This document shows positions 55,797 to 58,871 of a stretch of DNA of 64,000 bases, piece after piece (position 1 is the first letter of the stretch; every line of letters starts with the position of its first letter). The position numbers were made by a program, and so were the translations under genes. The DNA is taken from contig JAJTUP010000015.1 in assembly GCA_021399435.1 (NCBI GenBank), forward strand, positions 806,001 through 870,000, read 5' to 3'. This DNA comes from Diaporthe sp. PMI_573 (Eukaryota > Ascomycota > Sordariomycetes > Diaporthales > Diaporthaceae). The notes below the pieces were generated by a model, which was not told the DNA's origin, did no database searches, and worked only from the letters and a program-made list of their open reading frames with translations.

Positions 55797-57119
55797 GTCG
55801 ATAATGTTCGAGACGTCTTTGGTCACCTGTTGATTCGCCCTGGTGCTCTCGATGGGTGGGGTTGAATCTCAGGTGAGTGGGCATTTAAATCCCTGGCTTC
55901 CGCCAAGCTTACGAATCGACTTGATTACGCAACCTGCACAGTTGCACCAAGAAACCCTGGGATTCTAATGGTTCCGGGCAGTGCTTTGATTCGGCCGTAC
56001 CTCAAGACGTCCGCTACATATCTCGTGTCCGTCAGTGTGATCACTTGCTTATGTCTGTTAATACAAGAGGACTCGCATATCTTCCGGAGGATATGGTTTC
56101 TCCACGGTGAACAATAGCTTTTCGATGTCAGCAGCAAGGGCACAGTATGAGGAGCCATCGGACGACCGCGATACGAGCGTCTATCTACCTCGATACATTG
56201 TTGTAACCACAATGCCTATCGATTAAGAACACAGTGTGGCGTTATCTATGTTAGCCCTTGTCCTCCGAATAAACAGAGAATAGCAAACCAAAACGCAGAG
56301 TTCATCCCATCGGACTTGAGGATCGTCGTCGGTCGGACAATTTTTAATCTCCCCCTCACGGGAGTGCCGCGTGGCTAGACAATCCAAGCATGAGTTCGCT
56401 GGAGCCCCTGCAGGGTCTACAGGGGCCTGTCCTCTGGGGTCTGTGCCATATGTGCAACTTCCAAACGTCTCAAAGAGTTCCTCGCGTGCAACAATTCTGG
56501 GTCCAAAGTGTCGCGTCCCGTGGGGCTACGGCTAACCCGTGTTCAATCGTTGCAACAACACAGCCCCCTGGCGTACCTCATAAGCTCATGCATAGTATGC
56601 TGCTCTATTGGGCATATTCAATCCCAGAGTGACTCCAGACAACATACGCGGATTTGCTATGGCTGAGCCGGCAGTGGACCCTTGATGGTGGCTGCGTGGC
56701 CTTCTCGAGACCTCACTGACCCCATTGCACAGAGCGTGGTGGCTGGTCACTTGCCAGCACATGTTACGTTGAAGGTTAATCTCTTCGTAAGCTCCCCTGC
56801 GTAGTGTCTATTCCGCACGTAAACGCAAACCAAGGCAGGGTTTTGGTGATGACGAAGTGTGTACCGGATTGTGGGCGGACATGAGAGCCTCCAAGTCAAC
56901 ACATGCAACATGCCGTTTACACAGCCGTTGTCTCCTTGTTCGCCTTCAAAATTTCTCTCAATGAAGTCCTTGGTGGATATAAGGAAGAGGGTGCACATTC
57001 AAGTTATCATTCTTTGCGTTCAATCCTTTAGTAGATTGAAACAGCCTTCAATCTCACTGCCCGAATTGGCGAGCACGCTCATTTGCTGTCTTTCGTTACC
57101 CTAGCTGCATTCACTCGCT
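55797..57119. other. Intergenic region between divergent genes
   Basis: 1.3 kb holding the promoters of the RidA-family gene and the tyrosinase gene. Short ORFs at 55925-56212 (minus, non-ATG start) and 56390-56632 lack motifs. Confidence 0.4.
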
Positions 57120-58276
57120 ATGCATCTGTCTTCCACTAACGTGGTATTATCTGGCCTTCTGGTGGCCTCTTCGTGCGCCCAAGCACACCTTATACCTCGA
57201 CAGGACACGGAGGCTTGTGCCTCGCTCAGCCAAAGGAAATCATGGTGCGTGTCGCACTCGAATAAACGGCAGGATCTTTCTGCTGACTTTCGTTCCAGGA
57301 CTGCCCTCACCAGCGAAGAGAAGCAGGCATACATTGAAGCTGAACTATGCCTCATCAGCTCGCCTCCAAAGACTGGCACGATCGAGGGCGCAATCACGCG
57401 GTGGGACGAGCTTCACTATTCGCATATTGTACAGACAAATGTAGTCCACGACACTGGGTCATTTTTGCCTTGGCACCGACTGTACATGCGAGCGCACGAG
57501 ATCCTCTTGCAAACCGAGTGCAACTATACCGGGGCACAGCCGTACTGGGACGAATTGTCCACCACCGAGGACATAGCTGCGGGCATAGCGTTCAATGAGT
57601 CCGCAGTCTTTGATCCTGATACTGGCTTCGGTGGCACTGGCACTGGCGACGATCTCTGTGTCACAGATGGTCCGTTTGCTAATCTGACACTGCACATGAA
57701 CCGCACAAGCAACTACGCCGATTATTGCCTCAGCCGAGATTTTAGCCCAACATCCATTCAGAACGGGAACAGCACATACGTAGATACATGCTTTGTGTCT
57801 GCCAACTACTCTGAGGCCTGGCAGTGCTACAAGTCTAAGCCCCATACCGCTGGCCATGCAGCTATAGGCGGAACGGTAAGTATCTCTTGCTCATTTGTCG
57901 CCATGACACATGTTTGGATGAATTTCGAGGAGAAAGTTCTGATAATTATTTCCAGATGCTTGATGGTTCGGGAAGCCCTGGTGATCCACTATTTTTCCTG
58001 CATCACACCAATCTCGATCGGCTCTGGTGGGAATGGCAGCAAGCCAACTTGACAGCCCGGCTGACAGACATGACGGGCCGCAACGTGCCTCTGGCAAACT
58101 TCCTCCTAACAAACCAGGTTCCGTACCCTAGTTCTGCAGTTCTGGACTATGATGGAGACCCAGGAAACACAACGACCCTCAACCACACGCTTTGGATGGC
58201 TGGGATCATCCCCAATGCGACAATTGCGGAGGTAATGGACCTTGGTGGAGATCTAATTTGTGCTGAGTACATTTGA
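57120..58276 (+). CDS. Secreted tyrosinase (type-3 copper oxidase)
   Basis: Three exons: 57120-57244, 57299-57875, 57956-58276; introns of 54 nt (GTGCGT, GCTGAC branch) and 80 nt (GTAAGT); 340 residues. The first intron is not obvious because the frame stays open through it, but removing it restores QRKSW-TALTSEEKQAYIEAELC, the family consensus. Signal peptide MHLSSTNVVLSGLLVASSCA. Copper A ligands lie in DELHYSHIVQ and VHDTGSFLPWHRLY (H84, H92, H101); copper B in HTAGHAAIGGT and DPLFFLHHTNLDRLWWEW. The enzyme oxidises phenols to quinones, as in melanin or secondary metabolite formation. Short secreted forms like this lack the C-terminal shielding domain of the mushroom enzymes. Many N-glycosylation sites (NxT/S) support secretion. 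Confidence 0.93.
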
Positions 58277-58611
58277 GATGTGGGAAAAGGTTGTATAATG
58301 AGAAGAGATGTGAGGAATAGGAATATGGACAGAGGTCATGCAGACCCAGTCTGATCATCTTCACCCAGGCGGGTCAATCAATTTTTCTTAAGCATTCTCT
58401 AATATTAGATTGCCTGGGAAACTTACATTGTACATAATCAATGCACCAGCCTGTCCAGATCCATAGGAGAAGCCTAAATAGTACTCCAAAACAGAAAGGA
58501 GTGTGATTTCAAGGCTTGAAAATTAATTATTCCTCCACTTTGATCAATCATCTAAAACAAGGTATGCTCTCACAATGGTTCGAACTCGAGCTCTACAGCG
58601 TGAAAAAGGGC

Positions 58612-58617
58612 AAAAAA
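58612..58617 (-). terminator. T6 Pol III terminator of the tRNA gene
   Basis: Six T residues on the minus strand, 10 nt after the tRNA discriminator base. Runs of T5 or more near tRNA 3' ends terminate RNA polymerase III. Confidence 0.7.
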
Positions 58618-58642
58618 GATGATGGTCGCCCGACGTGGGACT

Positions 58643-58696
58643 CTGGTGTTTGTTAGTCACCAAGCTTTGGTTGGAGGTTTGGGGTGGATGGCTTAC
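58643..58696 (-). other. Spliceosomal-type intron in the tRNA T-loop
   Basis: 54 nt, starts GTAAGC, contains GACTAAC (branch A at 58653), ends CACCAG. It lies between G57 and A58 of the tRNA and splits the B box (GGTTCG|AGTCC). Donor, branch and acceptor match those of the protein genes in this window. Confidence 0.8.
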
Positions 58697-58716
58697 CGAA
58701 CCCACAACCTTGGGAT

Positions 58717-58742
58717 TGCTCTTTAATACGTAAGATTACGTA
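58717..58742 (-). other. Canonical tRNA intron at position 37/38
   Basis: 26 nt directly after A37. It contains a perfect 7-bp inverted repeat (TACGTAA/TTACGTA) and the segment AAAG, complementary to CTTT of the anticodon loop, as expected for the anticodon-intron pairing recognised by tRNA endonuclease. Confidence 0.75.
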
Positions 58743-58763
58743 TAAAAGTCACACGCTCTAGCC

Positions 58764-58820
58764 CTAAAGAAAAGGAGGGTCAGGAAGGGTTTTTGTTGAA
58801 TGGGAACACAGATTCCTTAC
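58764..58820 (-). other. Spliceosomal-type intron in the tRNA D-loop
   Basis: 57 nt, starts GTAAGG, has a CTGAC branch site (58779-58783) 16 nt before the 3' end, a pyrimidine-rich tract, and ends TTTAG. It lies just before G18G19 and splits the A box (TAGCTCAAT|GG). Confidence 0.8.
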
Positions 58821-58864
58821 ATTGAGCTAGCCGGGCTGTTGTAACATCCTGGTATTTTGCAAAC

Positions 58865-58871
58865 ATATATA
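58865..58871 (-). promoter_or_regulatory. TATA element upstream of the tRNA gene
   Basis: TATATA on the minus strand about 29-35 nt before the tRNA 5' end. In fission yeast, upstream TATA boxes help recruit TFIIIB to tRNA genes; here it could compensate for the interrupted internal boxes or drive Pol II. Confidence 0.5.

Follow-up and report, generated by a model that had tools for sequence, protein, structure and literature searches.

In the accepted view, the introns of tRNA genes are the business of the tRNA endonuclease, and spliceosomal introns are a property of mRNA genes, the exceptions being U6, U3 and some rRNA genes; in fungi the canonical tRNA intron sits at position 37/38. Fungal U6 snRNA genes have been described with spliceosomal introns (Tani and Ohshima 1989; Canzler et al. 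2016; both as cited in an excerpt of PMC5832005), and the same excerpt describes such introns in fungal U3 snoRNA genes and states that, among small structured RNAs, frequent interruption by an intron is known for U3 and U6 alone. In lichen fungi, according to an extract of PMC8527467, the rDNA carries ectopic spliceosomal introns which are taken out by the host spliceosome. Several introns per tRNA gene, at positions in the D- and T-arms, occur in archaea, nucleomorphs and Cyanidioschyzon, as given in parts of PMC4090602 and PMC3978253; the former, a review, treats those of nucleomorphs and Cyanidioschyzon in the D- and T-arms as a matter of the splicing endonuclease, and the string 'spliceosom' does not occur in it.

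The locus compared here with these systems lies in a stretch of 64,000 nucleotides from Diaporthe sp. PMI_573 (the window) and comprises a tRNA-Lys(UUU) gene with three inserts (Table 1). Like fungal U6, it combines a small structured Pol III RNA with GT-AG introns that have a branch site, as we also read in U6 copies of this genome; yet U6 is itself part of the spliceosome, whereas the window RNA is a tRNA with two such introns (D- and T-loops) beside an intron that is likely of the endonuclease type. As far as the excerpts describe them, fungal U3 shares spliceosomal introns in a small structured RNA but is not a tRNA, and the lichen rDNA shares spliceosomal introns in a non-mRNA gene, which is however a Pol I rRNA gene as opposed to a Pol III tRNA gene. 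The introns of archaea, nucleomorphs and Cyanidioschyzon are alike in their D- and T-arm positions and in being several per gene; in the same excerpts they are of the bulge-helix-bulge kind or short and are ascribed to the endonuclease, while the D- and T-loop inserts of the window are GT-AG with a branch site and show no such helix. Only the 26-nt insert resembles the canonical fungal 37/38 intron. Among the matches listed from the open-access literature, none described a spliceosomal intron in a nuclear tRNA gene, so these are known introns in a gene class where we found no earlier report. We put at about 80% the probability that the only Lys(UUU) gene found is split by two GT-AG inserts and a likely 37/38 intron, with a transcript likely processed by both the spliceosome and the tRNA endonuclease.

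Table 1. Features of the split tRNA-Lys(UUU) gene in the window, and inserts in other tRNA-Lys genes of the genome
Feature	Position	Strand	Basis
Whole tRNA-Lys(UUU) gene, four exons and three inserts	58627..58836	-	spliced fold and homology
Exon 1, tRNA positions 1-16 (acceptor 5′ strand, start of D-arm)	58821..58836	-	
D-loop GT-AG insert, 57 nt, after U16; GTAAGG...CTGAC...TTTAG, branch A at 58780	58764..58820	-	sequence motifs
Exon 2, D-loop GG through A37, holds anticodon TTT	58743..58763	-	
26-nt insert at 37/38, ordinary-looking tRNA intron	58717..58742	-	position and anticodon pairing
Exon 3, A38 through G57	58697..58716	-	
T-loop GT-AG insert, 54 nt, after G57; GTAAGC...CTAAC...CACCAG, branch A at 58653	58643..58696	-	sequence motifs
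Exon 4, A58 through discriminator G73	58627..58642	-	
TATATA at -35 to -30, which may be an upstream promoter element for Pol III	58866..58871	-	motif
T6, likely Pol III terminator, nine bases beyond gene end	58612..58617	-	motif
GAGTTCGAACC, downstream B-box-like motif, 39 nt beyond gene	58577..58587	-	motif
L070, Lys(CUU), GTAAG...AG insert at 53/54	C133:618853		
L071, Lys(CUU), GTAAG...AG insert at 53/54	C134:83772		
L072, Lys(CUU), GTAAG...AG insert at 36/37	C138:451328		

The joined 73-nt sequence and the three inserts

When the three inserts are cut from the minus strand, a product of 73 nt is left, and both this remainder and the coordinates agree exactly with those of an earlier note on this DNA. 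The product has a 7-bp acceptor stem (one G-U), a D-stem of 4 bp and a T-stem of 5 bp, and carries G18G19, the anticodon TTT, the T-loop TTCGAGT and discriminator G73. The earlier note had claimed a full cloverleaf; its acceptor stem, D-stem and landmarks stand, and it had left unmentioned that the anticodon stem has a single mismatched pair, 29-41 (U-C). Since 65 of the 73 positions equal those of the Lys(CUU) exons of this genome, homology and fold together identify a tRNA-Lys, and the locus, with a cloverleaf bearing TTT as anticodon, reads as a tRNA-Lys(UUU) gene. ARAGORN called no gene in the raw stretch and tRNA-Lys(ttt) with the three inserts out; with the 26-nt insert kept and introns allowed, it placed the intron otherwise and called Ala(agc). 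The Rfam tRNA model, run through cmscan, had no match in the window at gathering scores, and cmscan of the raw stretch had no tRNA match at E<=10. Both programs are blind to the raw form, and ARAGORN recognises the spliced one.

The D- and T-loop inserts each contain the 5′ site, branch site and 3′ site of major-spliceosome introns, the branch A lying 16 nt from the insert end in the former, which also has a pyrimidine-rich end, and 10 nt in the latter. A GTAAG start with a placed YTRAY and a YAG end was present in 17 of 2,688,000 window segments (50-70 nt, both strands), some of which may be real introns. The signals on which the mRNA-intron likeness had been claimed (GTAAGG/GTAAGC, CTGAC/CTAAC, AG) are there, and in length and branch site the inserts are similar to two mRNA introns of the window (70 nt with CTGAC, 57 nt with CTAAC); the comparison covers just these two, placed by alignment to proteins of this strain or of D. 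helianthi, and the same alignments gave implausible introns too, so that only the 57- and 70-nt ones were used. A crude intron scan of the window showed no excess (102 versus 104 in shuffles), and a codon-based scan gave nothing and then a noisy list. It may also be noted that a tyrosinase-like gene (57105-58275, plus strand) ends about 350 bases before the tRNA gene and has an apparent GTAAGT...CAG intron starting at 57876, as read by eye.

The 26-nt insert pairs with the anticodon in the predicted fold and passed a simple exon-intron helix test, so it is likely to be an ordinary tRNA-endonuclease intron. Before splicing, the 210 nt are predicted to fold with the acceptor stem, the D-stem and the anticodon-intron helix all formed (z -2.56, with 3 of 200 shuffles equally good). 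As to the architecture claimed in the earlier note, a tRNA-Lys(UUU) gene with two GT-AG inserts with branch sites in the D- and T-loops, it holds. Of the further reading of these inserts as spliceosomal-type introns, the GT-AG and branch-site architecture is supported, and their removal by the spliceosome is what we infer from it.

The tRNA-Lys genes of the genome

The genome was searched as an 83.7-Mb assembly of 217 contigs, the window lying within contig C57. Protein comparison agrees with the strain: a permease encoded in the window is 100% identical to a Diaporthe sp. PMI_573 protein across 86% of the query, and citrate synthase shows 97% identity with a Diaporthe eres cluster. A probe for the 5′ end (at most one mismatch) matched 14 sites. 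Ten of these are exact, eight of them being the window gene and all seven Lys(CUU) genes and the other two decayed copies (L067 and L073); the four with one mismatch do not read as tRNA-Lys. An anticodon-arm probe (at most one mismatch) matched 13 sites, of which the window gene is the exact one, six are genes for Lys(CUU) and the remaining six are non-tRNAs, and an exact Lys T-arm probe matched 24, which are the same eight genes and 16 sites judged to be non-tRNAs by eye or by ARAGORN. As the three probes agree, we see eight tRNA-Lys genes, of which seven are Lys(CUU) and just one, the window gene, is Lys(UUU), in a census that is blind to any Lys(UUU) gene unlike the window gene in all three stretches or lying outside the assembly. 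The Rfam model RF00005 gave 62 matches on the genome (58 above the cut-off), and Lys(TTT) is absent from the ARAGORN calls on these loci. Another T-arm probe had 171 matches as opposed to 42 for its backward control, and 24 of the 32 places fetched from the T-arm matches listed are tRNAs by ARAGORN. The RF00005 set therefore undercounts, and isotypes missing from it mean nothing. BLAST with the spliced 73-mer gave no match and missed the known Lys(CUU) genes as well.

According to the earlier note, several intact Lys(UUU) genes elsewhere would point to a dead copy; the three probes find no other, and by them the window gene lacks the intact counterpart with its own anticodon that a redundant pseudogene would have. 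A dead copy, in which the GT-AG introns sit in a tRNA gene no longer expressed while another, diverged gene reads AAA, is suggested by the U29-C41 mismatch and the split A and B boxes, by the decayed tRNA-Lys copies elsewhere in the genome, and by the fact that a Lys(UUU) gene differing in all three probe stretches would be missed. We nevertheless think it unlikely, as no other Lys(UUU) gene appears by the three probes and AAA is in use (33 AAA and 112 AAG among the 3489 codons of the window ORFs). Also, 65 of 73 positions are retained with every stem pair but one, both introns have complete splice signals and are free of T runs over four, and the TATA and T6 motifs are still in place.

GTAAG...AG inserts are found in four of the eight tRNA-Lys genes, namely the window gene (two inserts), L070, L071 and L072, and all of those listed start with GTAAG, end with AG and contain a branch-site motif. 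Between L070 and L071 all 73 exon positions are identical, 50 of 66 agree in the T-arm insert, with its ends best conserved, and 23 of 42 in the canonical intron. In the flanks, 34 of 40 positions agree near the 5′ end, and 71 of 163 and 94 of 203 further out (about 45%). That the exons are kept better than the insert and the outer flanks is the pattern expected under exon selection, though some of the identity between the exons could be due to gene conversion, since the near flank is also conserved. The last AG of this T-arm insert together with TTCGACCCC re-forms the B-box-like AGTTCGACCCC. By sequence comparison we count four independent insert events, the insert shared by L070 and L071 being taken once. 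With the insert removed, ARAGORN calls L071 Lys(ctt) and L070 Leu(caa) despite the identical exons, because in L070 it puts a 37-nt canonical intron elsewhere. L072 can be read in two ways, either with one 78-nt GT-AG intron or with two adjoining introns, a GT-AG one of 56 nt and a canonical one of 22 nt, and ARAGORN on the raw sequence gives Lys(ctt) with a 78-nt intron; it is possible that this gene represents a step from one intron type to the other.

These genes bear on whether the D- and T-loop inserts could instead be introns of the tRNA type that sit in unusual places and are removed by the tRNA endonuclease, the situation in archaea, nucleomorphs and Cyanidioschyzon. D- and T-arm introns are indeed on record (PMC4090602, in the part cited), and L070 and L071 offer one weak candidate each for an exon-intron helix. 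Against this, L072 offers none, and the simple bulge-helix-bulge test finds no such helix beside the cuts of either GT-AG insert of the window gene, while the 37/38 insert of the same gene passes; moreover, the GTAAG start, AG end and branch-site motif recur throughout and are not required by endonuclease introns. We regard removal of these two inserts by the endonuclease as very improbable. An assembly error or a chance arrangement, which the single copy of the locus in the assembly would allow, has hardly any likelihood at all in our view, since the Lys(CUU) sequence is matched in order at 65 of 73 positions and the same kind of insert is present in tRNA-Lys genes on other contigs.

Other tRNA families were searched for split genes through their T-arms and D-loop junctions. 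The first T-arm search for GT-AG introns gave 38 sites, no excess over the 36 of its control, of which one was fetched and the others were read as listed. The second gave 11 sites (control 24), which are two known genes and nine others, and none of the five fetched from these nine reads as a tRNA. The search for D-loop GTAAG junctions gave 23 sites as opposed to 38 for its control; apart from the window gene there were 22, and none of the 20 fetched from these 22 reads as a tRNA. Within the limits of these T-arm and D-loop junction searches, then, no GT-AG introns were found in other tRNA families, and the readings rest on the eye too, because ARAGORN cannot see split tRNAs. Three side observations may be added. 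The canonical introns of the Lys(CUU) genes L064, L065, L066 and L069 vary in sequence and have in common a stretch like GATTCTGACAG. Repeated tRNA-like sequences on many contigs (L003-L007, L016, L047, L048, L053-L055, L057-L059 and L061) have T runs behind them, some lie near contig ends and some are called Leu(gag) by ARAGORN, so that they look like a tRNA-derived repeat family. The near-identical loci L049 and L050 are called tRNA-Arg(gcg) with a 76-nt intron containing a second T-arm-like stretch, possibly an internal duplication.

Probable transcription and splicing, and the U6 genes

The T-loop insert splits the B box of the gene and the A box is also split, so transcription may perhaps start from the upstream TATA element. 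TATA-like motifs occur at -50..-18 in 13 of 68 upstream regions as opposed to 2 of 68 at -120..-88, the 68 being 74 regions minus near-duplicates and including some doubtful ARAGORN calls. CAACA directly precedes the first base of the window gene. Downstream, GAGTTCGAACC is the sole GAGTTCGANNC in the window, and one may guess that it could serve as an outside B box. T runs longer than four are absent from the five GT-AG introns listed. The gene would be transcribed by Pol III, perhaps from the upstream TATA element; the 54- and 57-nt introns would be recognised by the major spliceosome in the nucleus, and tRNA endonuclease and ligase would take out the 26-nt intron. Insertion is the likely origin of the introns in the D- and T-loops, in line with what has been proposed for U6.

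Because two mRNA-like introns lie in the only Lys(UUU) gene found, the tRNA that reads AAA likely must pass the mRNA-splicing machinery before use, and AAA decoding likely needs mRNA-type splicing. The wider reading, which we consider probable with less assurance than the splitting and processing of the gene itself, is that AAA is read only via a tRNA that passes the spliceosome twice and the endonuclease once, that nuclear tRNA genes can be invaded by introns of the spliceosomal kind, with half of the tRNA-Lys genes hit in at least four events, and that AAA decoding is thereby tied to the spliceosome. If true, a single-copy and likely essential tRNA gene with both kinds of intron would demonstrate that such invasion of tRNA genes can happen, and it would offer a natural test of the spliceosome on a folded Pol III transcript and of Pol III on split A and B boxes. 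Also, as RF00005 and ARAGORN both miss the window gene, tRNA finders could then miss essential genes.

The U6 snRNA copies of the same genome were read for comparison. The Rfam model RF00026 gave six matches, three of them above the cut-off. The best-scoring one (L146) is intronless but diverged. The copy L148/L153 (C138:750735), read by eye, consists of three exons, the middle one 9 nt long with a GT-AG intron on each side, and both introns carry GCTAAC and the B box AGTTCGATTCC. Copy L147/L152 has GTAAGC...CTAAC...TAG with a diverged 5′ part, and copy L149/L154 has GTGAGT...GCTAAC...TAG without a recognised 5′ exon. Since U6 copies are thus read with introns, Pol III transcripts likely meet the spliceosome in this fungus.
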